Positions 1,675 through 14,736 of a DNA stretch of 38,262 nucleotides are shown here, one piece after another; the first letter of the stretch is position 1, and each line of letters starts with the position of its first letter. This DNA is from a virus. The stretch is from IMG/VR virus record IMGVR_UViG_3300044786_000071, positions 1 through 38,262 of that record, one strand, 5' to 3'. Position numbers and translations under genes: made by a program. Below the pieces are notes generated by a model. The model made no database searches. It was not told where the DNA came from and worked only from the letters and a program-made list of their open reading frames with translations.

Positions 1675-1678
1675 GAAC

Positions 1679-1790
1679 GACGCAGCGGGTTGGATTTGAA
1701 CCAACATACTTAGAGCTCTTTTACCACTGGCCACTGGTGTCAGCGACGCCCTCGCCGGACGTATGACCAGTTCTCTCACTTCGCTGCGTC
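1679..1790 (-). ncRNA. tRNA-like element (degenerate tRNA or attachment site)
   Basis: On the minus strand a perfect tRNA-type T arm is present (GTTGG-TTCAAAT-CCAAC, 1705-1689), followed by a strand that pairs over 9 bp with 1782-1790 (GACGCAGCG with CGCTGCGTC), as an acceptor stem would. The enclosed 5' part has a possible D arm (GAGAACTGGTCAT) and a 5-bp stem with a 7-nt loop, but that loop lacks the invariant U33. The total of about 107 nt is too long for a normal tRNA, and no CCA follows. I see a tRNA relic or a captured tRNA 3' end rather than a working tRNA. Confidence 0.3.
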
Positions 1791-1797
1791 CCTGCTA

Positions 1798-1914
1798 CTA
1801 GTGCGGACGTGGGTTTGCCGTGCCGCCTTGGCCTTTGGTGCTGCCGCTGTTACCGTTGGGGCTGCTTTTCTTGGGGGGCAGGGGCTTGGGTGGGGTCTTG
1901 AACTGAATGTTCAT
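1798..1914 (-). CDS. Pro/Gly-rich small peptide, 38 aa
   Basis: A short frame starting at the ATG at 1914 with AAAGGAG eleven bases ahead, ending at the TAG at 1798. The peptide begins MNIQFKTPPKPLPPKKS and continues rich in Ser, Gly, Asn and Thr, so it is basic and probably disordered. Support is the strong ribosome binding site and its position just downstream of the next small gene. The composition is low in complexity, so it could be chance. Confidence 0.45.
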   Translation of the reverse strand: MNIQFKTPPKPLPPKKSSPNGNSGSTKGQGGTANPRPH

Positions 1915-1951
1915 CTTGTAGAGTACTCCTTTCTATGGAGTGGTTGGATGG

Positions 1952-2146
1952 TTAGTGGTCGCGGGGCTTACTGTGTGTTCGACCAGGGCCTCGGACGCGG
2001 CTGTGCTGCGTCTTGATGTGCTCAATGCCTGAAGGGTTAGGGCGATTTCGCCTTCCGCGTAGCATAGCTTGCATGTGTTTCTTTCGTCGTTTGAGTGACA
2101 TGGCTAGTACTCCTAGTATTAGCAGTGCGATGACTGTTGCGCTCAT
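1952..2146 (-). CDS. small membrane protein with basic tail, 64 aa
   Basis: The start is the ATG at 2146, overlapping the upstream stop as ATGA; AGGAG lies 14 bases ahead. Residues 3-18 form a membrane segment (ATVIALLILGVLAMSL). The remaining 45 residues are very rich in Arg, Lys and His and probably lie in the cytoplasm. It is the fourth of four consecutive membrane-protein genes (2646 down to 1952). Function unknown. Confidence 0.55.
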   Translation of the reverse strand: MSATVIALLILGVLAMSLKRRKKHMQAMLRGRRNRPNPSGIEHIKTQHSRVRGPGRTHSKPRDH

Positions 2147-2268
2147 GTTGTAAGTGCTACTCCTACCATTGTGGCAAGTAGCCCTGCCAGAGCTGATTGT
2201 GTGAGATCGAGACCCGTGCCGGCAAAAAACGCAGTGCACAGGCCCCAGATGACGATGATTATGATCAT
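2143..2268 (-). CDS. tiny hydrophobic protein, 41 aa
   Basis: It starts at the ATG at 2268 with GGGAG seven bases ahead, overlaps the previous stop (ATGA) and overlaps the next start (ATGA). Nearly the whole chain is hydrophobic, with a segment from residue 2 to 16 and another from about 25 to 39, so it may form a helical hairpin in the membrane. Overlaps on both sides and a good ribosome binding site support it despite its size. Function unknown. Confidence 0.55.
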   Translation of the reverse strand: MIIIIVIWGLCTAFFAGTGLDLTQSALAGLLATMVGVALTT

Positions 2269-2456
2269 ATAAAGCTCCCTGGGCCGCCGTTCAGAAGGTC
2301 GGCAAAGAATCCGGCCACTCCGCCGGCGAGCCATAGGATGACGGCGCACTGGAGCACGCCTGAGTAGTTGATGTCGTCCAGCGAAAAGAAGAACGAGCAT
2401 CCGCACACAGCTATTGCCGTTAGGCCGATCCATAGTCTGAAGCATGAAAGACCCAT
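2265..2456 (-). CDS. small membrane protein, 63 aa
   Basis: It starts at the ATG at 2456 with GAGG about ten bases ahead. Two hydrophobic stretches (about 8-24 and 33-56) are separated by a short polar loop containing DDIN. Three cysteines lie in or near the membrane segments. The stop overlaps the next start by 4 nt. It belongs to a run of small membrane proteins, none of a family I recognise. Confidence 0.6.
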   Translation of the reverse strand: MGLSCFRLWIGLTAIAVCGCSFFFSLDDINYSGVLQCAVILWLAGGVAGFFADLLNGGPGSFI

Positions 2457-2463
2457 GTGGTGG

Positions 2464-2646
2464 TTACCTCAGATGGCGCTCTAGCATCCACTTGGTCAGG
2501 CGGTCACTGAGACGTGGGTTCCAGAGCGTCAGTGTGGAGAAGTAGAACACCACGTCGATGATGGCCAACAAGACCCACAGTACATGTAGGAGGGTGTCCC
2601 ACAGTGCGATTAGGAACTTGCCAATGACGAAAATGATGCGGCTCAT
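2464..2646 (-). CDS. small membrane protein, 60 aa
   Basis: It starts at the ATG at 2646, three bases after the stop of the upstream gene, with GAGTGA as a weak ribosome binding site overlapping that stop. Residues 3-42 are almost continuously hydrophobic (one long or two short helices), followed by a basic amphipathic tail (SDRLTKWMLERHLR). It lies in a same-strand run with the genes on both sides. Function unknown. Confidence 0.6.
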   Translation of the reverse strand: MSRIIFVIGKFLIALWDTLLHVLWVLLAIIDVVFYFSTLTLWNPRLSDRLTKWMLERHLR

Positions 2647-2649
2647 TGG

Positions 2650-2859
2650 TCACTCGAAGCGCTTTGTTGGACGTATGTTCTCTTCTTGGAGGATGATTAT
2701 GCTGAGGCGCTTGTAGCCTGCTTTCATGAACCACTTGTTCATCCAGCTGCCGACGTCAGCGCTAAGTTTACCCTTTGGGTATTCCTTGCGTGCTTCTTCC
2801 GCGGCCGCGTTCATTTTTTCCATAATCTCGGCTGATTGGGCTGATTGTGTGCGTGACAT
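2650..2859 (-). CDS. small helical protein, 69 aa
   Basis: It starts at the ATG at 2859 with AAGAAGG about nine bases ahead. The first 30 residues are a charged helix (SAEIMEKMNAAAEEARKEYP). The second half (DVGSWMNKWFMKAGYKRLSIIIL) is amphipathic to hydrophobic. It is soluble or peripheral rather than clearly membrane-spanning. It is the first gene of the small-membrane-protein run and follows the hairpin at 2906-2938. Function unknown. Confidence 0.6.
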   Translation of the reverse strand: MSRTQSAQSAEIMEKMNAAAEEARKEYPKGKLSADVGSWMNKWFMKAGYKRLSIIILQEENIRPTKRFE

Positions 2860-2905
2860 GATAATTGCCTTCTTTCTTTATTAGGGCGTGGTGTGGGAGC
2901 GAACA

Positions 2906-2938
2906 GGGCGTCTACCGACTTAGGATAGATAGACGCCC
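2906..2938 (-). promoter_or_regulatory. intergenic hairpin, 9-bp stem
   Basis: GGGCGTCTA (2906-2914) pairs with TAGACGCCC (2930-2938) around a 15-nt loop. It lies between the 2968-3393 gene and the 2650-2859 gene on the minus strand. No U-tract follows, so it is a weak terminator candidate at best, or an mRNA processing or stability element. Confidence 0.5.
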
Positions 2939-2967
2939 ATTGCTGCTCACTGCGGGGACGTACTCTG

Positions 2968-3393
2968 TTACGAGCGGTTGCGCCGACGGCCCGAGGGGGC
3001 TTCGGCTTCGGCTTCGGTCGATTCGGTGGTCTCGGTCGCGGCTGGTGTTGCGCCTTTGACTTTGGCCTTGTACACGTAGCGCGGCTTGAGACTGATCCCG
3101 AACTGGCCCAATGCAGCTTCAACTGCAGGCAGGTCGGAAACCTTGACGTTGATGACGTAGGCTTTACCGTTGGCGCGTTCTGCACCACCGCCACGCGAAC
3201 GAGGCTTAGCTTTCAGCTCGTCGAGTGCGGCCTTGGTGATCTGCCATTCGCCTGCTTCCGTCTTGGTCGCAGCGAGGGTTCCATTACGTACCATGGTGCG
3301 CACGTACTGCTCGCTGAGTCCGGCATAGAGTGCGGAGTCGCGGATCCCCATAACGTCGGGGAAGTTGATGTTGGAAAGATCGATTGAGGTCAT
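2968..3393 (-). CDS. HTH DNA-binding protein, paralogue 1 of 4
   Basis: A 141-residue protein starting at the ATG at 3393 with AAAGGAG nine bases ahead. Residues 16-60 form an excisionase/MerR-type helix-turn-helix (SALYAGLSEQYVRTMVRNG). A second region near 75-105 (RANGKAYVINVKVSDL) corresponds to the C-terminal motif of the three other paralogues (3712-4095, 7805-8188, 10068-10388). The C-terminus is low-complexity Glu/Thr/Ala ending in RRRNRS. A near-consensus promoter lies at 3453-3481. It is probably an early transcription regulator. It is the most diverged member of the family. Confidence 0.75.
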   Translation of the reverse strand: MTSIDLSNINFPDVMGIRDSALYAGLSEQYVRTMVRNGTLAATKTEAGEWQITKAALDELKAKPRSRGGGAERANGKAYVINVKVSDLPAVEAALGQFGISLKPRYVYKAKVKGATPAATETTESTEAEAEAPSGRRRNRS

Positions 3394-3452
3394 TGTGGTA
3401 TGCTCCTTTCTTTTAGAATATCCAGACCAGTGTGTGGTCGTGGATTGTCTTG

Positions 3453-3481
3453 ATTATAAAGCAGAACTGGTTTGTTGACAA
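3453..3481 (-). promoter_or_regulatory. sigma70-type promoter
   Basis: On the minus strand TTGTCA (3481-3476) and a perfect TATAAT (3458-3453) are separated by 17 bp. It sits 60 bases upstream of the start of HTH paralogue 1 and lacks the upstream box found at the other early promoters. Confidence 0.8.
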
Positions 3482-3496
3482 GGGTAAACTTTTGGG

Positions 3497-3715
3497 TTAC
3501 TTTTCGTCACCGTCCTTTCTTGTACTTATGCCCAGAGCTTTCATTGCTTGCTCTAGTTGCTCTTGGTCCGACTTGCTCTGGGACACAATGGTAACGTGCT
3601 GTATAATCCATTCAAGCACCTTACGCATTTTGTTGAGGGCCATTTGTTGCGTCAGTGCGATGATCATTGCAGCCACAGCGATGATGAAGGCAGCGGTGGG
3701 CTCGTTGATGTTCAT
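3497..3715 (-). CDS. N-terminal membrane-anchored protein, 72 aa
   Basis: It starts at the ATG at 3715, overlapping the stop of HTH paralogue 2 as ATGA. Residues 8-26 form one membrane segment (AAFIIAVAAMIIALTQQMA). It is followed by an amphipathic helix and a charged C-terminus (SKSDQEQLEQAMKALG). The layout resembles small type-II holins or anchor proteins, but I cannot assign one. It is last in the operon started by the promoter at 6095-6123. Confidence 0.6.
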   Translation of the reverse strand: MNINEPTAAFIIAVAAMIIALTQQMALNKMRKVLEWIIQHVTIVSQSKSDQEQLEQAMKALGISTRKDGDEK

Positions 3716-4095
3716 TTTACAAATCCCGTCGTCCCATGGCTATTGCTGCTTCTTAGGAACCCCATGGCTTTTACAGTGTTTGCGGGCAGCATAGTGTCTG
3801 CTACTTCTGCCAGGTTGGCTTCGCGGACGAGAGCCAGGATGGTTGTGTACTCCTCAGGCGTAGCGTAGAAGATGAACTTGTTGCGACGGTCGTTCCGCCG
3901 CGAGTGAGTGTGTGCTTCACTTAGGTACCGAGCGATTTCCTCACTCGAAATCATGTGTCTCTGGGTTGAGGCCCCTTCGAAGATGGGTCTCAGTATCGAG
4001 GAGAGCTTGCCAGTGCGAATAAGGTACCTTACATACTGAATGGTGAAGCCCAGTTCTTTTGCCACTTGTGGGATAGTTAGTTCGTCATTTGTCAT
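3712..4095 (-). CDS. HTH DNA-binding protein, paralogue 2 of 4
   Basis: A 127-residue protein starting at the ATG at 4095 with a weak AAGG site, overlapping the upstream gene by 11 nt. An excisionase/MerR-type helix-turn-helix spans residues 5-60 (TIPQVAKELGFTIQYVRYL). The shared motif SRRNDRRNKFIFYATPEE follows near residues 65-83. The last 45 residues are unlike the paralogues. It is the second-last gene of an operon of unknown proteins, so it may act as a feedback regulator. Confidence 0.75.
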   Translation of the reverse strand: MTNDELTIPQVAKELGFTIQYVRYLIRTGKLSSILRPIFEGASTQRHMISSEEIARYLSEAHTHSRRNDRRNKFIFYATPEEYTTILALVREANLAEVADTMLPANTVKAMGFLRSSNSHGTTGFVK

Positions 4096-4501
4096 GTTTG
4101 CCCTTACCTTGTAGTACGTTATCCACCCTGCGCACGCCTTTGGGCTGCGGGTTCGTAGCTAGTAGACTGATGATGAGGATAGACCGGCGAATGTTCAAGG
4201 CATTGTACAGAGCGTCAATCATTATCAGGGCCTTACCTTGCCAATATGCCCACTCGTCAGGGGCCATGTTGTCGTCGGTTGGATAGAGCATCGTTTGGTC
4301 GAACGGCCGCGGAGGGCCGTCGCTGTATGTGATTTCCAAGATCCATCCGAACTTACGTACGCGCTCCTTGACATGCAGAAGCAGTGTGACTGCGTCGTGT
4401 GCGTACTTTTCGGTGGAGAAGGGAAATTGCGCGGCCGGAAGGGGTGTGAGGCCTTGCACGATTTCGTCCAAGGGGAACTCTTTAGGAGGGTTAGGTGTCA
4501 T
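4085..4501 (-). CDS. hypothetical protein, 138 aa
   Basis: The start is the ATG at 4501, preceded by GAGGA and overlapping the upstream stop as ATGA. The protein is mixed alpha/beta. Residues 1-30 are Pro-rich, the middle contains a Tyr/Asp/Pro-rich stretch (TYSDGPPRPFDQTMLYPTDD), and a hydrophobic helix lies near 100-118. The tail is basic (KGKHDK). No family is recognised. Confidence 0.6.
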   Translation of the reverse strand: MTPNPPKEFPLDEIVQGLTPLPAAQFPFSTEKYAHDAVTLLLHVKERVRKFGWILEITYSDGPPRPFDQTMLYPTDDNMAPDEWAYWQGKALIMIDALYNALNIRRSILIISLLATNPQPKGVRRVDNVLQGKGKHDK

Positions 4502-5028
4502 GGTTCCTCGTTTACTCGAATGCCGTCGTCCCACTTGTCAGGGTCGAGGTCGAGGTAGTTGCACACGGCGACAAGAGTTGGCTTCCCGTAAAACTCGTAG
4601 TCAAGAGTTGAGTTGACCAGTTCGTCGGGAGCACCGTCGAGCCAGAGCCAGGCCCAGTAGTGTTGCATTGTGCGCAAGGCGCTGAGGCCGCGGCAGTTGT
4701 TAGCTTTCTCCCAAGCGAAAGGCATGTACACTCTCATTGCTTCCTGGGGTGTACGATGCTCGCGTGATTCCTCCCACCATGCTTTTCGACTCTTGCTCTT
4801 GGTGTCGGTCCCCAGTAGCAGTGGGCCTGCTCTTTCAATGTCGAGATACGCAATGAGGTCGGCGACGGCGAAGTCGAAGAAGCCGTAGGGGGCTTCTCTT
4901 TTTCTTTCTAGCACCTTGTTCACAATCTCTTCCTGCGTGCGCTTGGTTAGAGGTTCGTCGTCGTCGCTGGGCCTGGTGCCCACATCGCGTTGGTCATCGC
5001 TGTCCATTTGCATAGTTAGCGTGTTCAT
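4498..5028 (-). CDS. hypothetical acidic protein, 176 aa
   Basis: It starts at the ATG at 5028 with GAGGAGG seven bases ahead and overlaps the preceding stop by 4 nt. The first 45 residues are acidic and probably disordered (DSDDQRDVGTRPSDDDEP). The rest is helical and Trp-rich (KAWWEE, MQHYWAWLWLDG), suggesting a compact helical domain. No catalytic motif is evident. It is the third gene of the operon running from 6037 to 3497. Confidence 0.65.
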   Translation of the reverse strand: MNTLTMQMDSDDQRDVGTRPSDDDEPLTKRTQEEIVNKVLERKREAPYGFFDFAVADLIAYLDIERAGPLLLGTDTKSKSRKAWWEESREHRTPQEAMRVYMPFAWEKANNCRGLSALRTMQHYWAWLWLDGAPDELVNSTLDYEFYGKPTLVAVCNYLDLDPDKWDDGIRVNEEP

Positions 5029-5564
5029 GTTTCGTCCTCCTCGAGTTCGAGGTTGGCGTTTTCCCAAGCCAGGTAGTCGTCGCCGTTAGGGTCACTCGAA
5101 GCGAATTCGCCATTGGCTTGAGTCATGCGGAAGGTGTTTAGTTGTTGGATCATGAAGCCGGCTAGCAGACGCTCAAACTTCGCATAGGTATGCATAGGAT
5201 CCTGATTGGTATGCAAGGAGGCATTGTTGATAAGCTCGATGACCCATTCTTGGAACTTGCCTTCGTCGAAGAAGTCAGTTGGCAAGGGTGGCCGTGGCCG
5301 TAAATCGTAGGCCAGAGTGTTGAGGAAGTTGTGCACTTGGATGGCTTCGTCGCCGTAGAGTGTTTCACTTACGGTTTCGTAGCCGATGCCGGGGGTAGCT
5401 GTTCCGATGAAGGTAAGCCCCAGCTTGGGAGTTCCGATGGGGGGGTGGTTATGGTACAGCGCAGCTTCCTCGTCCATAATGGTACTGAGACCTGTTGTGG
5501 AGACAACGTGCACGAGGTTGATAACTCTGCCGTTGACACCAAGGGATATGAATCCTGTTGACAT
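5025..5564 (-). CDS. hypothetical protein, 179 aa
   Basis: It starts at the ATG at 5564, with the leader GAAAGGAACCC nearly identical to that of the gene just upstream. The N-terminal 65 residues look like beta strands (FISLGVNGRVINLVHVVST). The remainder is helical with an acidic end (LELEEDET). The stop overlaps the next start (ATGA). No recognised domain. Confidence 0.65.
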   Translation of the reverse strand: MSTGFISLGVNGRVINLVHVVSTTGLSTIMDEEAALYHNHPPIGTPKLGLTFIGTATPGIGYETVSETLYGDEAIQVHNFLNTLAYDLRPRPPLPTDFFDEGKFQEWVIELINNASLHTNQDPMHTYAKFERLLAGFMIQQLNTFRMTQANGEFASSDPNGDDYLAWENANLELEEDET

Positions 5565-5578
5565 GTTATGGGTTCCTT

Positions 5579-6037
5579 TCATTCCGGGGCGCTTTTGGTC
5601 TCTAGAGCAGATTCGATGAATGCGTCACCTGTGCCGTCGATGAATGCGTCATCGCCTGTTCCGATCTGCGTGTTACGGAATTCGGCTTGAGCCCGTATCA
5701 GTACCTGGCGAAACATTTCGACGAATACTGTGTGTCGGGCGGGATCGGGCAGAAGTGCCTTTATTGCTTGAAGGACTGCGTCGTACGAGGTCAGGTTGCT
5801 GACGTCGTGAAGCTCTTCTTCCATTGAGGAGATGTCATCCACGAAGGATTGAAGCCATTCTTGCGCGGAAGGGTCATTCTCGTGAATTGCTTTGCACAGG
5901 GCCTCGTGTAGGCTCTCGGCCACGGTTGGAAGTACTTCTGGCTCATCTTCGTTGATGACCTGCGTGCCCAAGACGTAAGAATGTGTACGTGCCTTTGCCG
6001 ACAGGGTGAAACGTATGTAGACTGTTGATCTTGACAT
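5579..6037 (-). CDS. hypothetical protein, 152 aa, first gene of early operon
   Basis: It starts at the ATG at 6037 with GAAAGGAACCC ahead, about 60 bases downstream of a strong promoter (6095-6123). A beta-rich N-terminus (STVYIRFTLSAK) is followed by a long helical body. Near the C-terminus a short sequence is repeated (TGDDAFIDGTGDAFIES), reflecting a duplicated 15-bp stretch. No family is recognised. As first gene behind the strongest repeated promoter it is probably made early and abundantly. Confidence 0.65.
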   Translation of the reverse strand: MSRSTVYIRFTLSAKARTHSYVLGTQVINEDEPEVLPTVAESLHEALCKAIHENDPSAQEWLQSFVDDISSMEEELHDVSNLTSYDAVLQAIKALLPDPARHTVFVEMFRQVLIRAQAEFRNTQIGTGDDAFIDGTGDAFIESALETKSAPE

Positions 6038-6094
6038 GGTGAGGGTTCCTTTCATTTGTTGGAGAGGGGTGGGGTTTGATTTCATTGTATATAT

Positions 6095-6159
6095 ATTATA
6101 ACCGTTTTTTTACATGTTGACAAGTGATCAATGATGTGTTTAGATTAGGGGATCTTTTT
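6095..6159 (-). promoter_or_regulatory. early promoter A with upstream box
   Basis: On the minus strand: AAAAAGATC (6159-6151), 10 bp, AACACATCATTGATCAC (6140-6124), immediately TTGTCA (6123-6118), 17 bp, TATAAT (6100-6095). It drives the operon beginning at 6037. The same multi-part arrangement recurs at 8280-8344 and 9489-9552, and in part at 11590-11634. Confidence 0.85.
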
Positions 6160-6165
6160 CTTCGG

Positions 6166-6621
6166 CTACTCGGACTTGGGGCGGCGCTCGAGCTCGGGTT
6201 CAGGGTCAGGCTTGAGATAGTGCCAAGTAATGCGTGCCAGGAGCTTACGCATTGTCGTACCCCCGACGCCAAAATACTTTGCCAGTGCGTAAGCGGACTC
6301 ACCTGCAGCATATCTCCTTCGGGCTTCGAGAACATCATGTTCGGTAAGCTTGGCGTTCGTGTTTGCGTCCATGCTCATAACGAGGTGCTCGGCCTTGATG
6401 CACGTGTTGTTTTTACACGTACGGCGTACATCTTGCCTCATGGACAGAGTGACATTGTGTGCGAGCATGTAAGCAAGACGGTGTACCTTGTGAACTTCAC
6501 CGTCAAAAGCGACAATAGGGTACTTTCCTTCGTTGACAAAAGAGCCCTGCCACTCGATGCATCCGTTCTCGTTGGGGGGGAGGGCACGTGCGTACAGTTG
6601 TTCGAGCGTGGTAATTGTCAT
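6166..6621 (-). CDS. HNH-type homing endonuclease with C-terminal HTH
   Basis: A 151-residue protein starting at the ATG at 6621 with AGGAG ten bases ahead. The N-terminal part shows the zinc-loop HNH pattern: CIEWQG, then KVHRLAYML, then TCKNNTCIKAEHL. In most relatives the residue two before the first Cys of the last motif is His; here it is Arg (VRRTC), so activity is uncertain. Residues 90-135 form a helix-turn-helix (EARRRYAAGESAYALAKYFG), typical of DNA recognition in free-standing homing endonucleases. It has its own promoter, like many mobile endonuclease genes. Confidence 0.8.
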   Translation of the reverse strand: MTITTLEQLYARALPPNENGCIEWQGSFVNEGKYPIVAFDGEVHKVHRLAYMLAHNVTLSMRQDVRRTCKNNTCIKAEHLVMSMDANTNAKLTEHDVLEARRRYAAGESAYALAKYFGVGGTTMRKLLARITWHYLKPDPEPELERRPKSE

Positions 6622-6649
6622 GCTGTGTGGTCTCCTATTCTGTGGATTG

Positions 6650-6678
6650 ATTATAACTCAGAAACACGAAACAGGCAA
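6650..6678 (-). promoter_or_regulatory. promoter of the HNH gene
   Basis: TTGCCT and a perfect TATAAT on the minus strand are separated by 17 bp, about 30 bases upstream of the HNH start codon. The sequence just beyond the -35 only partly resembles the shared upstream box. Confidence 0.7.
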
Positions 6679-6736
6679 GGTGTCACTAATGTGCTACCTT
6701 CTTCCATGGCGCCTTGGCCTTGTGTCCGGTATGTGA

Positions 6737-6791
6737 GAGTGAGTGAGTGAGTGAGTAGAGAGAAGATAATAATAATAATAATAATAATAAT
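6737..6791. repeat. microsatellites (GAGT)5 and (ATA)n
   Basis: Five exact GAGT copies at 6737-6756 are followed by about 26 bases of ATA/AAT triplet repeat at 6766-6791. Both lie in the non-coding AT-rich region. Confidence 0.9.
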
Positions 6792-7028
6792 CAAAGTTAT
6801 AAAAAAATCTATGTAAAATCTGAATAAATCTTTTTCATGGTGCTAGTCTATCACCTACTACTACCATATATGTTGTATAGCGCAATGCTTCAAAAAAGAA
6901 AAGCATCAGAAATCAAAGAAAATTATGATCTTATGATTATCGAAAATCGATTATCGTCCCCTATTGGTTCAACGCTTAGCGCTTTGAGGTTCGCGATTGC
7001 GATTTTAGCGAATGACGCTGGGGGGCCC

Positions 7029-7049
7029 GCACGCATCACGTGCTTTTTT
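7029..7049 (+). terminator. possible plus-strand terminator
   Basis: GCACG-CATCA-CGTGC followed by TTTTTT on the plus strand. The stem is only 5 bp, and no plus-strand gene is recognised upstream. It would end an RNA made from the AT-rich region, if one exists. Confidence 0.35.
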
Positions 7050-7068
7050 ACCCCCTTCCCTCATTCCG

Positions 7069-7215
7069 CTACTTGCGCCGGCCCACTTTGAACTTGTCCT
7101 GGCGCTCGTCGTAGTGCAGCCATTCGTTCCGTTGTGCGACACCAGCCACCCATACTCCCACAATGATGCCGATCAAAAGGATCAGCGCCCCGCCAACGCA
7201 AATAGTTGTGTCCAT
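7069..7215 (-). CDS. small single-pass membrane protein, 48 aa
   Basis: It starts at the ATG at 7215 with GAGG seven bases ahead. Residues 7-27 are a clear membrane segment (VGGALILLIGIIVGVWVAGV) and the rest is a basic cytoplasmic tail (QDKFKVGRRK). It follows the zinc-ribbon gene on the same strand. Function unknown. Confidence 0.55.
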   Translation of the reverse strand: MDTTICVGGALILLIGIIVGVWVAGVAQRNEWLHYDERQDKFKVGRRK

Positions 7216-7258
7216 GTGTAGCCTCGCTTACGCGTGAAACTCGGCCCTGTGCATTGCG

Positions 7259-7528
7259 CTACAGCAACAGGTCCGGCTCCCTATAGTCGTCGCCCAGGAA
7301 CTCGTGACAGTTCTTGCACAAGTACAAAGGTCCTCCGTCACTTATTTCTGGGGGGTTGCGGAAAACGCCAAACCATATGGCGTACTTCACGTGGCACTCG
7401 GGGCATTCAAATTGAGGGGCGCCCTGTATCGCTTCCCTCTCGGCGCGTCGCCGTTCGCTCTTGCGTTGCGAGGACTCAGGCATCGCGCCGATGAAGTTGT
7501 CGTAGCTCCTGAACTCGGTGTCAGTCAT
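7259..7528 (-). CDS. zinc-ribbon protein, 89 aa
   Basis: It starts at the ATG at 7528, overlapping the end of the upstream membrane-protein gene by 8 nt, with no good ribosome binding site, so it is probably translationally coupled. CPEC (about residues 43-46) and CKNC (about 72-75) form a CxxC...CxxC zinc ribbon or HNH-like knuckle. A basic Ser/Arg/Glu helix precedes it (QRKSERRRAEREA). There is no HNH catalytic histidine pattern. It is possibly a small nucleic-acid-binding protein. Confidence 0.65.
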   Translation of the reverse strand: MTDTEFRSYDNFIGAMPESSQRKSERRRAEREAIQGAPQFECPECHVKYAIWFGVFRNPPEISDGGPLYLCKNCHEFLGDDYREPDLLL

Positions 7529-7685
7529 TGCAGATGGCCAATGGCAGGCAACCGCTCCAGTCGCCCCACATCCAGGAACCGTCTTCGAAGATGACAAGAC
7601 TTCCGAGCTCAATTTCGAGCAGGATGAAGAAGACGAAAGCGATCAGGAACAGTGTGATTGAAATTGCCAGGTATCGTTTGTTCAT
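7521..7685 (-). CDS. small membrane protein, 54 aa
   Basis: It starts at the ATG at 7685 with CGGAGA about seven bases ahead. Residues 6-26 are a strong membrane segment (AISITLFLIAFVFFILLEIE). The rest is an acidic, Trp-rich tail (FEDGSWMWGDWSG), probably outside the membrane. It lies just after a terminator-like hairpin, so it may head its own transcript with 7259-7528 and 7069-7215. Function unknown. Confidence 0.6.
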   Translation of the reverse strand: MNKRYLAISITLFLIAFVFFILLEIELGSLVIFEDGSWMWGDWSGCLPLAICND

Positions 7686-7710
7686 TTTAGATCTCCGGGT
7701 TAGAAACACG

Positions 7711-7737
7711 AAAAGCCCGTATTGCTACGGGCCTTTC
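7711..7737. terminator. bidirectional terminator-like hairpin
   Basis: GCCCGTA-TTGC-TACGGGC (7715-7732), flanked by A4 on the left and CTTTCGTTT on the right. On the minus strand it reads into TTTTCG and lies directly after the 21-codon gene, ending the HTH paralogue 3 transcript. Confidence 0.7.
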
Positions 7738-7739
7738 GT

Positions 7740-7805
7740 TTAGTGTCGCCTGGGTGCAAAGAGCCAGGCCATGATCAGGAAGATGATCAAGCATCCTTCG
7801 CACAT
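7740..7805 (-). CDS. tiny hydrophobic peptide, 21 aa
   Basis: Its ATG (7805-7803) overlaps the stop of HTH paralogue 3 as TAATG, and its stop directly precedes the terminator hairpin. The peptide has two Cys at the start (MCEGC), a hydrophobic middle (LIIFLIMAWLF) and a basic end (RRH), like known phage membrane micropeptides. Exact placement between a stop and a terminator supports it; the small size leaves doubt. Confidence 0.4.
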   Translation of the reverse strand: MCEGCLIIFLIMAWLFAPRRH

Positions 7806-8188
7806 TAGTACGACGGCTCGAGATCCATGATCTCAGTGGGTTCGATGGGGTCGTCGCTCCCAATGTCGGTCGCTTCCTTCTTGCCGTACGTCGGCTTCAT
7901 GATCGGCACGTTGGGGTAACGCTTCTGGATCTTCTCCAGTTCGTCGGGCGTCACGTACAGAATGTAGCGGCTCCGGCCGTCTTCACGGCGGGAGTGCTCA
8001 GAAGTCGCTGCGCGCCAGGTCTCCAACGCTTCCTTCGAGATCACGTGGCGGTTGACGTTGCTCTCCGGACCCGTGGGCTCGAGAGAGGTGACCAGCTTGC
8101 CTGCGCGGATGGCGTGGCGAACGTACTGCTCGCTCAGTCCAAGCTCGAGGGCTGCAGTCTTGATGGTGTAGAACATTTGATCAGACAT
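7805..8188 (-). CDS. HTH DNA-binding protein, paralogue 3 of 4
   Basis: A 127-residue protein starting at the ATG at 8188 with AAAAGGAG six bases ahead; an upstream in-frame start at 8236 lacks such a site. The helix-turn-helix is at residues 6-50 (AALELGLSEQYVRHAIRAGK). The shared C-terminal motif HSRREDGRSRYILYVTPDE lies near residues 68-86. An acidic tail (DIGSDDPIEPTEIMDLEP) follows. Transcribed from promoter B with an 80-nt leader that contains a 7-bp hairpin (8222-8239). It is probably a regulator of the early genes. Confidence 0.8.
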   Translation of the reverse strand: MSDQMFYTIKTAALELGLSEQYVRHAIRAGKLVTSLEPTGPESNVNRHVISKEALETWRAATSEHSRREDGRSRYILYVTPDELEKIQKRYPNVPIMKPTYGKKEATDIGSDDPIEPTEIMDLEPSY

Positions 8189-8221
8189 TCGGGGCTCCTT
8201 TTCTTGTAGTCTGTTCCTAAC

Positions 8222-8239
8222 CGAGTGAAGGCTCACTCG
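8222..8239 (-). promoter_or_regulatory. leader hairpin upstream of HTH paralogue 3
   Basis: CGAGTGA-AGGC-TCACTCG, a perfect 7-bp stem with a 4-nt loop, between promoter B and the ribosome binding site. It could be an operator palindrome or an RNA hairpin. Confidence 0.5.
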
Positions 8240-8279
8240 TGATTAGTGATGAAGGGGTGTATTTTTTCATTATATACAT

Positions 8280-8344
8280 ATTATAACACACCTTGAAGGT
8301 TCTTACAAGTGCTCAATGATGTGTTTGGCGCCGTCGATCTTTTT
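8280..8344 (-). promoter_or_regulatory. early promoter B with upstream box
   Basis: On the minus strand: AAAAAGATC (8344-8336), 10 bp, AACACATCATTGAGCAC (8325-8309), TTGTAA (8308-8303), 17 bp, TATAAT (8285-8280). The box overlaps the last codons of the 8313-8609 gene. It drives HTH paralogue 3. Confidence 0.85.
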
Positions 8345-8609
8345 CGCGGCGCATGGCTCGGTGGTAGCGTTCGAGGCCTTCGCGGCGTCGGAGCTCTATC
8401 TCCATGATCCACAGAGTGTCCAGTAGGCGCTCTTTGCGCTTGCCGCTCGGCGCACTGGCGATGTTCCGTGCTTCGTGCGCCAGGCCCAGCCACTCGGCAA
8501 ACGGCGTATCCGTACATTTCACCATGTATTCGATGTGCACGGCGAGCCGCCCTGCGTTCTCTTCCGTTACATCTCTCTGGAGTTCCTTGATATGCATGTA
8601 GAGAGACAT
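8313..8609 (-). CDS. hypothetical helical protein, 98 aa
   Basis: It starts at the ATG at 8609 with AAGGAGG four bases ahead, one of the strongest ribosome binding sites here. It is almost wholly helical, with a His/Arg-rich C-terminus (RREKDRRRQTHH). Its stop codon lies inside the upstream box of promoter B. No membrane segment and no recognised family. It follows 8661-8969 on the same strand after a 51-nt gap. Confidence 0.65.
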   Translation of the reverse strand: MSLYMHIKELQRDVTEENAGRLAVHIEYMVKCTDTPFAEWLGLAHEARNIASAPSGKRKERLLDTLWIMEIELRRREGLERYHRAMRREKDRRRQTHH

Positions 8610-8660
8610 TGTGCCTCCTTGTATGTGGATACGAGGCGCCTTGTTAGACGCCTCATGTTG

Positions 8661-8969
8661 CTAGCGTTCAAGACCGTCGGCTGCTGATACTATGCTTCTG
8701 AATCCTTGATCGATGATAGCATCAAGAAGCTCGTAGTAGTCTCGATCGTCGTCATGCTGCGGGGCGTCTCTACCGAGAAGGCTGATCGCAATGCTCTTCG
8801 CTTCGGGGAACACTGCATTCATGACATGCGTCTTGATTGTTTCGTCAGTCTCAAGGCATTCGATGATCGCCTTGATGATGCGGCGCCGCTCAGTACGCGA
8901 GATGGGGCGCGTATGCTTGAAGAGCGGTGTCTCTGCTTGCTTTCTGAGCATCTCTGAAATCTTGTTCAT
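8661..8969 (-). CDS. hypothetical protein, 102 aa
   Basis: It starts at the ATG at 8969 with GAAAGGA seven bases ahead. The leader upstream (8973-9010) is nearly the same as that of the next gene (9439-9476), including an 8-bp hairpin. The protein is helical with an acidic mid-section (APQHDDDRDYYELLDAIID). The 3' halves of this protein and of 9008-9433 share the general pattern of an acidic loop followed by a Tyr-Tyr/Glu helix, which hints at distant relation. Function unknown. Confidence 0.65.
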   Translation of the reverse strand: MNKISEMLRKQAETPLFKHTRPISRTERRRIIKAIIECLETDETIKTHVMNAVFPEAKSIAISLLGRDAPQHDDDRDYYELLDAIIDQGFRSIVSAADGLER

Positions 8970-8972
8970 CGT

Positions 8973-9010
8973 GTATCCTTTCATTTTGATAGAACCGCGT
9001 TCTATCTTTA
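8973..9010 (-). promoter_or_regulatory. repeated leader with RBS-proximal hairpin, copy 1
   Basis: GATAGAAC-CGC-GTTCTATC (8988-9006) is a perfect 8-bp stem with a 3-nt loop, followed on the minus strand by AAAATGAAAGGATAC leading to the start at 8969. About 38 bp match copy 2 with two or three differences. Confidence 0.8.
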
Positions 9011-9433
9011 TTTAGATATGAGCCAGAAATCTTTAGCTACGGCTTCATAAATATTGTTGGACTCGTGGTACCTTGTAATATCGTTACCGAGAGCCTTGAT
9101 GATGGCGTAGTACAATTCATTTTCGATCGGGTCGCTATCTTCGTCGTTACCGAGATCACCGAAATCGCCGGCCGCCCAAAGCTGAAGGATCAGGGTCGCG
9201 ATCTTCAAAGGATCCTTGATCTTCTTACTGAAGCGGGGGGCAGGATTCAAATAATGCTCGCGAACTGCTTCGCGATAGCGCTCTACGTCTTCAATGAGAT
9301 CGCCGTCTCTCATGTTTTCGTAAGCGACGGGTTCGAAACCCGATGAGAGATCGTTCACATAGTCTTGTACGACGACGTCGCTATCGAAATCGTACAGCTC
9401 GCGAAGTCTTTGTTCTACCTGTTTCTCGTTCAT
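9008..9433 (-). CDS. hypothetical protein, 141 aa
   Basis: It starts at the ATG at 9433 with GAAAGGA about nine bases ahead; an upstream extension in the same frame would overlap the promoter and is rejected. It is helical and acidic, with a Gly/Asp-rich loop (AAGDFGDLGNDEDSDPIENE) near residue 95. First gene behind promoter C, carrying leader copy 2. No recognised family. Confidence 0.65.
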   Translation of the reverse strand: MNEKQVEQRLRELYDFDSDVVVQDYVNDLSSGFEPVAYENMRDGDLIEDVERYREAVREHYLNPAPRFSKKIKDPLKIATLILQLWAAGDFGDLGNDEDSDPIENELYYAIIKALGNDITRYHESNNIYEAVAKDFWLISK

Positions 9434-9438
9434 TGTAT

Positions 9439-9476
9439 GTATCCTTTCGTTTTGATAGAACCACGTTCTATCTTTA
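9439..9476 (-). promoter_or_regulatory. repeated leader with RBS-proximal hairpin, copy 2
   Basis: GATAGAAC-CAC-GTTCTATC (9454-9472), perfect 8-bp stem, followed by AAAACGAAAGGATAC and the start at 9433. The loop and one base downstream differ from copy 1 while the stem is unchanged. Confidence 0.8.
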
Positions 9477-9488
9477 TCTTGATACCTA

Positions 9489-9552
9489 ATTATAACATAT
9501 TTTATATGATCATACAAGTGATCAATGATGTGTTGGTTACGGCGATCTTTTT
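9489..9552 (-). promoter_or_regulatory. early promoter C with upstream box
   Basis: On the minus strand: AAAAAGATC (9552-9544), 9 bp, AACACATCATTGATCAC (9534-9518), TTGTAT (9517-9512), 17 bp, TATAAT (9494-9489). It drives 9433 and probably 8969 and 8609. Confidence 0.85.
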
Positions 9553-9588
9553 AGAAGTATGGGGGTATCTGAATACATCGTCGATACC

Positions 9589-9617
9589 TTGAGGTGATTT
9601 TGGTGATAAGTTATAAT
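9589..9617 (+). promoter_or_regulatory. plus-strand promoter, divergent from promoter C
   Basis: TTGAGG (9589-9594), 17 bp, then a perfect TATAAT (9612-9617) on the plus strand, 24 bases before the start codon at 9641. Confidence 0.75.
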
Positions 9618-9640
9618 TATATTATAGAATAGGAGACGCT

Positions 9641-9829
9641 ATGAACAAGGATATCGTTCGCATAAAAGAATACATCGAGTCGCATTATGCAGGAGAATAC
9701 GCTCAGGGGTACGTCGAGGAGCTCGTCGCCCTCGATGGTCGCTTCGCTGAGGGATACTTCGATATGAGCGACGAAGAGATCGCCGAAGACTTTCAGCTCT
9801 ACGTAGATAACCGAAACGTAGACGGGTAG
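9641..9829 (+). CDS. acidic small protein on the opposite strand, 62 aa
   Basis: The only plus-strand gene in the early region. It starts at the ATG at 9641 with TAGGAG six bases ahead and has its own promoter (9589-9617). The protein is acidic (FDMSDEEIAEDFQLYVDN) with a helical N-terminus rich in Tyr and Glu. It resembles small DNA-mimic or inhibitor proteins in charge only; no family is recognised. A GC-rich repetitive stretch follows. Confidence 0.65.
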   Translation: MNKDIVRIKEYIESHYAGEYAQGYVEELVALDGRFAEGYFDMSDEEIAEDFQLYVDNRNVDG

Positions 9830-9995
9830 CGCTCAGCGCTCGGCGTACTCTGCGGGTCGCTCGGCGCAGCAACTCGCTTGGCGCTCGGCGCTACTCCTCC
9901 GGCTCCGCGACTCGCCTGGGGGTACTCACCCTGACTCCGTTGCGTATACTCACCCATGTATCCTATTCCATAGCGAGTCGCCTGGGAGGGGAGAG
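9830..9995. repeat. GC-rich repetitive stretch
   Basis: Non-coding sequence with several CTCGGCG units and a pair GCGACTCGC (9907-9915) and GCGAGTCGC (9973-9981), which are reverse complements and are both followed by CTGGG. Two GTACTCACC-like copies lie between them. Composition differs sharply from the AT-rich flanks. Confidence 0.6.
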
Positions 9996-10023
9996 GGGGA
10001 GAGAAAAATTTGGCAACTTGCAT

Positions 10024-10061
10024 AAAAAAAATACCTACCTACGTTAGTACGTAGGTAGGTA
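10024..10061 (-). terminator. rho-independent terminator
   Basis: A perfect 13-bp stem, TACCTACCTACGT (10032-10044) with ACGTAGGTAGGTA (10049-10061), 4-nt loop, followed on the minus strand by a T tract of about eight. It lies just after the stop of HTH paralogue 4. Confidence 0.9.
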
Positions 10062-10067
10062 GTTTGG

Positions 10068-10388
10068 TTACTTGGCTTTGGGCTTGTACTGCTTCTGCTT
10101 GGTGATGATCGACCCAATACCTTCCTTGGCCATAACCTCCTGGATCCGTTTCAGTTCTGCAGGAGTGGAGTGAAGTACGAACCTGTTACGACCGTCCTCT
10201 CTCCGCTGGGAACGTTTGCCTTGAAACCGAGCCAGCTCTTCCTCCGGAATGAGGTTCCGCGGAATATTGGTACCAGGGATATACTCCTTGGTATGGTCCA
10301 GCTTGCCTGTCAAGATCATACGACGAACGTAGACCTCGGATAGGTTGGTGGCTGCACAGAACTGCTTGATGGTATACATTGCGGACAT
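10068..10388 (-). CDS. HTH DNA-binding protein, paralogue 4 of 4
   Basis: A 106-residue protein starting at the ATG at 10388 with AAAGGAG six bases ahead. Helix-turn-helix at residues 4-48 (FCAATNLSEVYVRRMILTGK); shared motif SQRREDGRNRFVLHSTPAE at about 60-78; then a helix and a Lys-rich tail (KQKQYKPKAK). It forms a single-gene transcript with its own strong terminator. It aligns best with paralogue 3. Confidence 0.8.
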   Translation of the reverse strand: MSAMYTIKQFCAATNLSEVYVRRMILTGKLDHTKEYIPGTNIPRNLIPEEELARFQGKRSQRREDGRNRFVLHSTPAELKRIQEVMAKEGIGSIITKQKQYKPKAK

Positions 10389-10721
10389 GATAATCTCCTT
10401 TCAAGATATACATGTTTCGGCCTTACGCTATAGTTGGTAAAGCTCTAATAATAGTATAACCTCCCTAGGTCCTGTCCGTCTAGTGTCGAATGACATGTTC
10501 TAACCGTGATTTTTATACCTGATATCGGGTCACCGGGTAAGCGATTTGCTAGCCGGAATCACCTGGTGTCGGTGGATAGCACAAGAAAACGCCTCACACC
10601 AGCAAATCTGCCGCATGAGGCGTCTCCTAAATCAAACGTCACCTAGCCGGAGCCCCGGGGTGGCGACGTTCCAAACAAGCACAGGGCAAACCGAGGCGAA
10701 AGGAACCCCGGCACCCCGCAC
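10389..10721. other. 333-nt intergenic region
   Basis: No gene is supported. It contains a -10-like TATACT (10458-10453, minus strand) without a convincing -35, a direct repeat CTAGCCGGA (10549-10557 and 10643-10651), and the terminator-like hairpin at 10585-10623. A 28-codon frame starting inside that hairpin is judged spurious. Confidence 0.5.
10585..10623 (-). terminator. terminator-like hairpin after the 10722 gene
   Basis: ACGCCTCA (10589-10596) pairs with TGAGGCGT (10616-10623) around a 19-nt loop. The minus-strand copy runs into TTTTC. It lies about 100 nt beyond the stop of the 10722-11033 gene. Confidence 0.6.
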
Positions 10722-11033
10722 CTAATTGGCAGAAAGCGTACCCCCAATCAAAGTGTGTACGACGAAGAACAACTTATCCGCTTGCACCAAATAAGGCTCA
10801 ACGCCCACACCAAGAAACTCCGTTCTACCAAAGTGGACTTCAGCGTCTCCGGACTCAGCCACTTCCCCTACTACCCACACAACCTCCCTCCTAACTACTT
10901 CGTACCCAATCTCGATGAAGAACACACACTCTTCATCTAGGCACTGACTCCTCAACAAGGCCACTGCTGCCATCACCGGCTCTCCGTAGTCTAGCATCAC
11001 CGTCACGCCATTCGCTTTCTGCATGGTTCTCAT
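10722..11033 (-). CDS. hypothetical protein, 103 aa
   Basis: It starts at the ATG at 11033 with AAAGGAG six bases ahead. Beta-rich and hydrophobic in the middle (ECVFFIEIGYEVVRREVVWV), it may be a small beta-barrel. It overlaps the 3' end of the triple-HTH gene by 101 nt in another frame, which is long; either that protein truly ends inside this gene or a frameshift has extended it. The plus-strand frame at 10755-10940 is its shadow. Confidence 0.6.
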   Translation of the reverse strand: MRTMQKANGVTVMLDYGEPVMAAVALLRSQCLDEECVFFIEIGYEVVRREVVWVVGEVAESGDAEVHFGRTEFLGVGVEPYLVQADKLFFVVHTLIGGTLSAN

Positions 11034-11529
11034 TGGCTCTCCTTTCTCTTGCCCGATCACGTCGGAGCGTTATCCCAAGCTCATGCAAGATCCCGTGGAG
11101 GGTTGGCTGATGAAACCCGGTCTCCGATTTTATTCGCCACAAAGGCTCTCCTGCTTCGTACATGGCCACAGCTTGCCGTTTGCGTTGTTCCATAGCCCCT
11201 TCGAGATAATCGGCGCGTACGCGCACGTCGACCTGCGCCTGTGCAAGTGCTGCGTACAGGGTGTTGTAGTCAATCCCGTGCTGAGAAATGATGCTTTTCA
11301 CCTTCTCACCTGCATTATATCTGGAAACAATATCCCCAACTATTTCCGGCCCAAGAGCGTCGACCTTGCTGGCCCTGTGCAACTCGATTCCTGCCTTCAA
11401 TAGCACCCTTCGAACTGCGGACAGGGAACAACCAACCTCTGCCGCAATTGCATCAGGGGAGAACTGCTCAGATCGAGCCATCTCGATGATTTCCATCTCA
11501 GCTTGAGGTGTAATAGTGGTGACAGCCAT
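10933..11529 (-). CDS. triple helix-turn-helix protein, 198 aa
   Basis: It starts at the ATG at 11529 with GGAGAGAG ahead; the frame continues upstream but crosses promoter D. Three successive resolvase/homeodomain-like helix-turn-helix units are visible: residues 8-48 (SPDAIAAEVGCSLSAVRRVL), 55-95 (AGEKVKSIISQHGIDYNTLY) and 108-145 (AGEPLWRIKSETGFHQPTL). The last 40 residues overlap the next gene and look unstructured and charged. Sitting between the early and late blocks and divergent from terminase, it may act as the early/late regulator or a second terminase-like DNA binder. Confidence 0.7.
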   Translation of the reverse strand: MAVTTITPQAEMEIIEMARSEQFSPDAIAAEVGCSLSAVRRVLLKAGIELHRASKVDALGPEIVGDIVSRYNAGEKVKSIISQHGIDYNTLYAALAQAQVDVRVRADYLEGAMEQRKRQAVAMYEAGEPLWRIKSETGFHQPTLHGILHELGITLRRDRARERRANENHAESEWRDGDARLRRAGDGSSGLVEESVPR

Positions 11530-11589
11530 TCTCTCTCCAACTCCACGCCCTCCCCCAGACAGGGTGTAAATGTAAAATTGATGATAATA

Positions 11590-11634
11590 ATTATAATCTT
11601 TTTTCATTTTTTAACCAGTGATCAAAGATGTTCT
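11590..11634 (-). promoter_or_regulatory. early promoter D, diverged copy
   Basis: On the minus strand: AGAACATCTTTGATCAC (11634-11618), TGGTTA (11617-11612), 16 bp, TATAAT (11595-11590). It keeps the TTGATCAC core of the box but lacks the distal AAAAAGATC. It drives the triple-HTH gene. Confidence 0.7.
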
Positions 11635-11691
11635 AGAAGTCAACCCTGGCCAAGAAACAAAATATCGTGATAATTGATGTAACAGGAAACT

Positions 11692-12201: not shown

Positions 12202-13628
12202 AGTGCTCCAAGTCCTTCGCGTACTTTGTTGACACTTACATTCTGATATACGACGCGGTCAAAACTGATTGGATACCCTTCCGTCTGTGGCCTGACCAGA
12301 AGAACGCGGCCATGGCCATTGCAGCACACGCCCTCACAATCATTCTGAAGGCCCGTCAGTTGGGAATGACCTGGTTATGTTTAGCGTACCTGCTGTGGCT
12401 AATGATCTTCCGTGCCTCAGCTACAGTCCTGGTATTTTCGAGGCGTGAGACCGAAGCAGCATACTTGATGTGGCGGCTTCGAGAGATGTACAAAAGGATC
12501 CCCGAATGGATGCAAGCGCGTGAGGTCCTTACAGACAATACTTTGGCGTTTCAGCTGTCCAATGGGTCTATCGCATATGGGTTTCCAACCACCGCAGGTG
12601 ACTCGTATACAGCGACTGCAGCCTTAGTGGACGAGGCCGACCTCCTCCCCGACCTCAACGCCCTAATGGCTGCAGTGAAGCCAACAATCGACGCGGGCGG
12701 CTCAATGATGATGATCAGCCGGTCGAATAAGAAGGAACCGAACAGTCCTTTCAAGAAGCTGTTTAGAGACGCACTCAACAAACTAAATCCATGGTTCCCA
12801 GTCTTCCTTCCATGGTGGGTACGGCCAGAGCGAACGCACGCATGGTATGAGGACATCAAGAACGACTCCCTCAGCAGGACCGGGACGCTTGACGAGCTAC
12901 ACGAACAGTATCCGGAGACGGTTGACGAAGCACTCGAAGCACTGTCCACGGACAAACGAATACCTCCAAAGCTTCTAAGGGAAGTATTCGAGCCCATGCA
13001 GTACACGAAAGGTGACCTACCAGGGCTTGTCATTTTCAAGGCCCCCGAGCTGATGGGTAGATACGTAATTGGAGCAGACCCTGCTGAAGGAAACCCTTCG
13101 AGCGACGACAGCGTTGCAGATGTCCTCGACACGGCCGGCGAGCAGTGTGCAACGATTAGCGGCAAGTTCGAGCCCGCAATCTTCGCGTCATACCTGGAGG
13201 AGCTCTCCACCTTTTATAACAGGGCCAAAATCATGCCCGAGAGAAACAATCACGGACATGTACTTATTGCGGAGCTGCCCCCCGAACTTATACTCAAAGG
13301 CAGCGATGATAAGCCTGGATGGCACACGAACATAAAAAGCAAAGCACAGATGTACTCCAGCGCGATCGAGTACCTCAAGGACAAGGCAACGAAGATACAC
13401 AGCCAAACCACGAACGACCAGCTCCTCTCAATCGTTGGAGAAACCCTTCGTGCCCCGGACGGAATGCTTGACGACTTCGCAACCTCATATTGTTTGGCCC
13501 TGTGCGGCTTGGGCATGCGCCTCGCAAAGTCGTTCGCAATGGAGTACACCAATATGCCCCACGTGATGAAGAACCGTCGCGAGGCACTAGCAGAGAAGAT
13601 GCGCAATGCACCTACCATATACAGTTAG
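12165..13628 (+). CDS. terL: terminase large subunit
   Basis: A 487-residue packaging ATPase and nuclease, started at the ATG at 12165 with AAGGAG nine bases ahead. The ATPase part shows an atypical Walker A (KARQLGMTW, residues 62-70) and Walker B with catalytic Glu (ALVDEADLL, about 153-161). The RNase-H-like nuclease has the first Asp in VIGADPAEG (Asp305), PERNNHG near residue 358, and a late acidic pair (MLDDFATS). It drives DNA into the prohead and cuts concatemers. Length is within the normal range. Confidence 0.9.
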   Translation: MDSQQRVNVEWLKCSKSFAYFVDTYILIYDAVKTDWIPFRLWPDQKNAAMAIAAHALTIILKARQLGMTWLCLAYLLWLMIFRASATVLVFSRRETEAAYLMWRLREMYKRIPEWMQAREVLTDNTLAFQLSNGSIAYGFPTTAGDSYTATAALVDEADLLPDLNALMAAVKPTIDAGGSMMMISRSNKKEPNSPFKKLFRDALNKLNPWFPVFLPWWVRPERTHAWYEDIKNDSLSRTGTLDELHEQYPETVDEALEALSTDKRIPPKLLREVFEPMQYTKGDLPGLVIFKAPELMGRYVIGADPAEGNPSSDDSVADVLDTAGEQCATISGKFEPAIFASYLEELSTFYNRAKIMPERNNHGHVLIAELPPELILKGSDDKPGWHTNIKSKAQMYSSAIEYLKDKATKIHSQTTNDQLLSIVGETLRAPDGMLDDFATSYCLALCGLGMRLAKSFAMEYTNMPHVMKNRREALAEKMRNAPTIYS

Positions 13629-14736
13629 AAAAGCTATCCAAAGAACCCTTTTGCCCGTACGGTCCGAAGGTCCTGATGTTTCGTTTTATCAGGATGATGA
13701 CCAGACCCCACAGCAAATCGACTTCGCCAAGATGGCTACAGCTGCTGACTACGTCATTATTCGCGCAGGACAAAACACGTGGGCAGATCCTGACTGGGTA
13801 TACAATTGGCTACACTCCAAGGAATCCGGCCTCCCCAGAGGTTCTTATTGGCTGTACGATAGCCGCTCCGACCCAAAGGGACAGGCTGAGAAGTGGGTCA
13901 CTTTGCTAGGGAACGATCGGGGCGAGCTTCCTATGTTCGGTGACTTCGAAGAAAGATACGGCGGCCCGTACAAAGGATGGAGACACTGGTATGACTTCCT
14001 TGAGCGGGTCCGCCAACTAGTGGGTGATAAAGAGATAGGCATTTACACTGCCTTCTATTACTGGGTAGAATACACTTTGGGGGCCACATCATCAGAACTG
14101 AACTATTTCCATCGTTACCCACTATGGGTAGCTAATTACGACGTACTTGCCCCGAAGGTCCCATTGCCATGGGCAGTGAACGAGTGGCTTTTCTGGCAGT
14201 ATACTTCTCATGGACCTGGATCCCAGTTTGGTGTCGAAAGCCTGAACATCGACCTGAATTACTTCAACGGCGACAAGACTGCACTGTACAGTAGATTCAA
14301 CATCAACGGCACTCCCGTGCCCCCTGCAGGAGGAACTATGAAAGGTACAATGCTTGGTTACACAGTCAATGTACGCAATGCCATTGGTGACATTGTGGCA
14401 GCACTCAGAGTAAATGATGTTGTTTACGGTACAGTTTTCACCGACACCCGAGAACGCATCAAGTTCAGTGAGATACACAAGGCCGATGGGTCCCTGCACA
14501 CACTTTCCGAAATGTGCACCGCAATCACCAACAATGATCTTATCCCGCCCTTGTACTATATGAAACTGGAAGAAGTGACTGAACCTGTTCCCACCCCCGT
14601 TCCGTCAGTAAAGGGCAAGCTTTTTGCAACTCTCTTAGGCTTATCGGCTGAGCTAGATGGAGAATATGAATCGGCTGAAGTGGAACTCGCCAAAAAGTTC
14701 GCAACGTTCCTTCCAGATCCGGATGCCTTAGGATGA
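13606..14736 (+). CDS. GH25 muramidase (endolysin or virion lysin)
   Basis: A 376-residue protein overlapping the end of terL by 23 nt. Residues 22-225 match glycoside hydrolase family 25: GPDVSFYQ with Asp24, the strand YVIIRAG, GSYWLYDS, and the catalytic DxE in MFGDFEE (Asp113, Glu115), then FWQYTS near residue 200. It should cleave the MurNAc-GlcNAc bond of peptidoglycan. The C-terminal part (about 240-310) looks like an SH3-like wall-binding domain, ending in a linker and helix. No signal peptide. The start has a poor ribosome binding site, so coupling to terL is likely. Its position between terminase and portal is unusual for a lysin. Confidence 0.85.
   Translation: MHLPYTVRKAIQRTLLPVRSEGPDVSFYQDDDQTPQQIDFAKMATAADYVIIRAGQNTWADPDWVYNWLHSKESGLPRGSYWLYDSRSDPKGQAEKWVTLLGNDRGELPMFGDFEERYGGPYKGWRHWYDFLERVRQLVGDKEIGIYTAFYYWVEYTLGATSSELNYFHRYPLWVANYDVLAPKVPLPWAVNEWLFWQYTSHGPGSQFGVESLNIDLNYFNGDKTALYSRFNINGTPVPPAGGTMKGTMLGYTVNVRNAIGDIVAALRVNDVVYGTVFTDTRERIKFSEIHKADGSLHTLSEMCTAITNNDLIPPLYYMKLEEVTEPVPTPVPSVKGKLFATLLGLSAELDGEYESAEVELAKKFATFLPDPDALG

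Follow-up and report, generated by a model that had tools for sequence, protein, structure and literature searches.

Four leftward promoters of an uncultured phage carry versions of one box directly upstream of the -35 element, and this box may be an asymmetric operator through which a single phage-encoded DNA-binding protein represses a leftward regulon consisting of promoters A, B and C and, weakly, promoter D, a reading to which we give a probability of about 0.45. The repeated box is most simply understood as the landing site of one regulatory protein; the motif is new, while the kind of viral gene switch is ordinary. For one uncultured phage, the analysis proposes a regulon, a precisely defined motif for binding and a candidate regulator. 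From the sequence, we infer the binding of a protein at the box, which protein binds, the sign of control and its timing.

The window, meaning the whole stretch of DNA that was analysed, comprises 38,262 bases and is a virus record from IMG/VR. Its first part (1-11,600) holds small leftward genes, and the rightward genes that begin at 11692 encode the terminase small and large subunits, a GH25 endolysin, portal, major head protein, tape measure and tail proteins, a structural and packaging set that identifies the source as a tailed, siphovirus-like phage. The GH25-type endolysin gene (13606-14736, plus strand) lies between the terminase and portal genes and suggests a Gram-positive host. A DNA polymerase gene and 7-deazaguanine genes occupy the right end, and a 98% identical contig (L035) adds 7.5 kb past that end (L035 1-7577), with primase-like, Sak4-like, QueC-like and QueD-like genes; the box is absent from L035. 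The 7-deazaguanine genes (35829-38078 in the window and 4130-5345 in L035), of which QueE and FolE were named by family match and the QueC-, QueD- and DpdA-like genes by reading translations, suggest a modified guanine in the phage DNA. TTAA is strongly depleted across the whole window (22 found vs 73 expected), and CATG and AATT are mildly depleted, perhaps through restriction avoidance. A search of three records, which represent an incomplete genome, detected no phage integrase domain, and an immunity repressor is therefore not implied.

A preliminary description had assigned to three promoters a tag, a gap, a box, a TTGTNN hexamer, a 17-bp spacer and TATAAT, and every named element and coordinate was verified (Table 1). 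In promoters A, B and C, AACACATCATTGATCAC (with one mismatch in B) is followed immediately by TTGT and lies 23 bp upstream of TATAAT, and the tag AAAAAGATC precedes it at a distance of 10, 10 and 9 bp, respectively. The conserved block extends into the -35 element to give the 21-bp sequence AACACATCATTGATCACTTGT, which spans -52 to -32 and is centred at -42; all positions relative to the start assume a start site 7 nt past the -10, which would place that of promoter A near 6088. An A-tract is present in the three promoters at -71 to -67. The fourth promoter, described as keeping the core of the box, was confirmed as well, with three mismatches to AACACATCATTGATCAC and the further departures listed in Table 1. 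TATAAT is found in four of the four boxed promoters and TTG at the -35 in three, and the last two letters of the -35 hexamer vary among them, as does the spacer. All boxes and the extra box-like sites are on the minus strand and all boxed promoters read leftward, that is, in one orientation relative to transcription. The box of promoter B shares bases with the stop codon of ORF 8313-8609, which lies upstream.

Table 1. Promoters, box-like sites and genes of the left arm
Feature	Position	Strand	Details
Promoter A	6095..6159	-	AAAAAGATC 6159-6151, N10, box AACACATCATTGATCAC 6140-6124, TTGTCA, N17, TATAAT 6100-6095
Promoter B	8280..8344	-	AAAAAGATC 8344-8336, N10, box AACACATCATTGAGCAC 8325-8309, TTGTAA, N17, TATAAT 8285-8280
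Promoter C	9489..9552	-	AAAAAGATC 9552-9544, N9, box AACACATCATTGATCAC 9534-9518, TTGTAT, N17, TATAAT 9494-9489
Promoter D	11590..11634	-	degenerate box AGAACATCTTTGATCAC 11634-11618, TGGTTA, N16, TATAAT; without AAAAAGATC
Weak box-like site CATCACTAATCAC	8239..8251	-	leader of B, about +22 to +34
Weak box-like site CATCAATTATCAC	11667..11679	-	about -97 to -84 relative to D; shortly before the rightward terS start
Box-less sigma70-like promoter	3453..3481	-	TTGTCA-N17-TATAAT; internal control
Box-less sigma70-like promoter	6650..6678	-	TTGCCT-N17-TATAAT; ahead of HNH endonuclease gene 6166-6621; internal control
Box-less promoter with TATAAT	9589-9617	+	same perfect -10
First gene behind promoter A	5579..6037	-	followed by further small ORFs
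phrog_5706	4498-5067	-	small ORF downstream of 5579..6037
HTH_17 protein	3712-4095	-	among the small ORFs behind promoter A
HTH_17 paralogue	2968..3393	-	behind box-less promoter 3481-3453
Gene behind promoter B	7805..8188	-	excisionase-like winged HTH (HTH_17)
First gene behind promoter C	9008..9433	-	followed by 8661-8969 and 8313-8609
HTH_17 paralogue	10068..10388	-	alternative candidate regulator
Gene behind promoter D	10933..11529	-	198 aa; predicted to contain three tri-helical HTH units in tandem; candidate reader of the box
terS (terminase small subunit) start	11692	+

The box and the tag are more frequent than chance would allow. With up to three mismatches, AACACATCATTGATCAC is matched four times in the window against 0.15 expected (0 of 100 shuffles reach four), and all four matches are located at promoters; AAAAAGATC is matched three times against 0.43 expected, each time 9-10 bp upstream of a box. 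Six pairs of promoter-like sites share an upstream 17-mer, taken as alike at >=13 of 17 positions, against a shuffle mean of 0.02 and a maximum of 1. The same six pairs recur in the contig L025, and at other loci this statistic picks up nothing beyond weak, isolated pairs and local repeats that overlap. When IMG/VR was scanned with box patterns linked to a promoter, the near-identical L025 was the only box holder; the other 17 IMG/VR stretches have TTGATCACTTGT...TATAAT but no box, and resemble chance or coding matches. Genome contigs scanned with the box patterns gave no match, and a 99.98% identical contig was the only relative found to have the same early region. Searches by tape measure, polymerase, terminase, HTH proteins and phrog_5706 led to the same phage or to distant phages with one or two common genes. 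Among GenBank phages there was no close relative and no DNA match, the five proteins tested had only distant relatives, and the product of the gene behind promoter B had no match.

The box is conserved in its own right, because the spacer leading to the -10 has diverged while the boxes stayed alike. Among promoters A, B and C, the box plus TTGT is identical at 20-21 of 21 positions (the boxes are 94-100% alike), against 7/19, 8/19 and 11/19 (37-58%) in the 19 bases preceding the -10, a difference with Fisher p values of 1e-4, 3e-5 and 7e-3 for the three pairs. Upstream of AAAAAGATC, similarity is at chance level. The blocks at -71 to -63 and -52 to -32 have thus persisted amid drifting surroundings.

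RNA polymerase seems not to need the box, because several neighbouring sigma70-like promoters are box-less. The boxed promoters as a group have a consensus no weaker than that of the box-less ones. These neighbours, together with a box kept against a diverged spacer, bear out the earlier suggestion that the conservation exceeds what RNA polymerase needs. The box conservation and the box-less neighbours also argue for a shared protein-binding site, the part that stands of the proposal of a shared activator or operator; the choice between the two is a matter of likelihood. Simple repeats, (GAGT)n and (TAA)n, are found at 6735-6795, upstream of the box-less promoter of the HNH gene, and a lone rightward ORF encoding an acidic protein of 62 aa (9641-9829, plus strand) has its own promoter-like sequence, TTGAGG-N17-TATAAT, and is divergent from promoter C.

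With up to two mismatches, a 13-bp core of the box is matched seven times, against 1.3 in shuffles; the matches are the four boxes, the sites at 8239-8251 and 11667-11679, and one at 36411 inside the ORF 35829-36644. The two extra sites near promoters sit at B and D, the two promoters with an imperfect main box. Local shuffles give 0.02 such sites per four promoter regions, and 0 of 2000 contain two or more, a statistic that is suggestive only, because motif and distances were picked post hoc and the sites are two mismatches off. The extra copies at B and D would suit auxiliary operators rather than an activator touching polymerase, and with the site at 11667-11679 near the start of the terminase operon, the same regulator could act in both directions. 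A hairpin (CGAGTGAGCCTTCACTCG) at 8222-8239 (minus strand) in the leader of promoter B overlaps the extra box-like site at its edge.

Under the preferred operator reading, the boxed promoters would be fired by host RNA polymerase at once after infection, which is probable because they combine a perfect -10 with a fair -35, and the leftward operons are probably early, to judge from their gene content and position. Once accumulated, the regulator would bind the 21-bp block including the -35 and exclude sigma region 4, which would produce an autoregulated shut-down at a set time. About 25 bp upstream, the AAAAAGATC tag may provide a second contact or bend site, the weak extra copies at B and D may act as auxiliary operators, and the regulator would be the predicted triple-HTH protein made from promoter D. 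The perfect -10 elements, the box-less neighbours of like consensus quality and the extra sites unsuitable for class II action lean to repression.

A less likely reading makes the box a class II activator site, at which a phage or host activator bound at about -42 would touch sigma region 4 and offset the non-consensus TTGTNN. The 21-bp block overlaps the -35 element, keeps a single orientation and a constant phase (one base shorter in D), and C and D have -35 hexamers that agree with TTGACA at just 3/6 positions. Constant phase and a block centred at -42 point towards activation, although common descent would give the same fixed phase. Typical activator-dependent promoters are weaker in consensus, unlike the boxed promoters with their perfect TATAAT; with every -10 perfect and the -35 of A at 5/6, these promoters should fire alone. 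The box-less promoters are not clearly stronger, and the extra copies lie where class II action is impossible. Moreover, if the genes are immediate early, the activator must be host-encoded or injected.

That the box is part of an extended early promoter which host RNA polymerase recognises unaided, through alpha-CTD or another contact and with no regulator, seems quite unlikely. Extra consensus beyond the -35 and -10 elements, along with UP elements, is known from T4 early promoters (PMC2988021), and the A-tract upstream in three promoters had been put forward as a possible UP element. However, the UP consensus at -59 to -38 is matched at 5-6 of 15 positions in the boxed promoters, against a random mean of 6.05, and the box is of mixed composition. 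The A-tract at -71 to -67 is upstream of the usual alpha-CTD subsites, and with UP matches at background, the UP-element proposal is not upheld; the box-less promoters of the same region further argue that polymerase does not need the box. A copied promoter module, in which a box without function owes its similarity to recent common descent, is barely plausible, since the spacer has drifted so much further than the box plus TTGT, even though A and B are alike around the start site (6/7 and 10/15) and leader sequences in the same region are also duplicated.

Several other interpretations of the box were rejected. As a plus-strand terminator or hairpin it is unsupported (fold z-scores 0.33, -1.17 and -1.45), and Rfam gave no match; GATC avoidance or a methylation switch is disfavoured by GATC being not clearly depleted (138 vs 155) and by the loss of the box GATC in B; and by-eye comparison with the sites of IHF, FNR/FixK, CRP and P2 Ogr gave no fit.

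Two boxed operons start with HTH protein genes, and the leading candidate for the regulator of the proposed operator is the predicted triple-HTH product of the gene behind promoter D, with the excisionase-like HTH_17 paralogues second. The D-gene product matches the families HTH_23 and HTH_58 (both above the Pfam cut-off), phrog_1303 and phrog_323 (D5-like), and a single-sequence model (pLDDT 71) shows three successive tri-helical units. The nearest solved folds of this protein, all weak matches, include a CRISPR-repeat binding protein and Pax paired domains, which are tandem-HTH DNA binders. A multi-HTH protein would suit a long asymmetric site, for which the cluster A mycobacteriophage repressor offers a precedent by analogy. 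Should the triple-HTH protein prove to read the box, it would add to the monomeric phage repressors known to recognise an asymmetric site; failing that, the box would be one more phage operator family. It is decidedly unlikely that, at several promoters, one monomeric three-HTH phage protein reads AAAAAGATC, N9-10 and AACACATCATTGATCACTTGT together as a single asymmetric operator split over about 36-40 bp; if true, this would go beyond the two-domain L5 repressor. The four HTH_17 paralogues all lie in the left arm, and their predicted folds are closest to mycobacteriophage Xis and MerR-like proteins, with no match reaching E 0.001; for the B-gene product, the nearest is the mycobacteriophage Pukovnik Xis, a weak match (E 0.016). 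On the minus strand, at 9454-9472 and 8988-9006, the leaders of two consecutive genes share a 47-nt repeat (91% identical) with a GATAGAAC-GYG-GTTCTATC hairpin immediately ahead of the ribosome site (fold z-scores -2.3 and -2.7), possibly an mRNA stabiliser or an RNA-protein site.

Among known systems, the L5-type repressor of cluster A mycobacteriophages is a monomer with two DNA-binding domains that reads a short asymmetric site (PMC9283540). The box resembles L5-type operators and stoperators in its asymmetry, its recurrence at phage promoters and its orientation along the direction of transcription. The L5 site, however, is a different 13-bp sequence with >20 copies, many of them outside promoters and some within operons, whereas here there are four boxes, all at promoters, plus two weak copies, none of these six further than about 100 bp from a promoter. 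At 17-21 bp the box is also longer, has a distal tag and occurs where no integrase was found, and family scans of the HTH proteins encoded here did not name the L5 repressor. T4 early promoters, which additionally carry TGn (PMC2988021), resemble the boxed promoters in having extra consensus common to several phage promoters and near-consensus -35 and -10 elements. In the boxed promoters, by contrast, UP matches stay at background level, and the extra block adjoining the -35 has a specific, mixed sequence. Regulators of the excisionase/Cox/Apl type, such as Apl of phage 186, are excisionase-like winged HTH proteins that also regulate early promoters, and the four paralogues encoded nearby are candidates for a cognate role. 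Apl sites consist of direct repeats spaced by one helix turn (PMC7498355). In contrast, the box holds at best ATCA-N3-ATCA, with a 7-bp period that is broken in B and D. The MotA box of T4 middle promoters likewise pairs a phage-specific element in the -35 region with a perfect -10. Its centre, however, is at -30, and it takes the place of the -35 element (PMC2988021), whereas the block described here is centred at -42 and three of the four promoters retain TTG at the -35.
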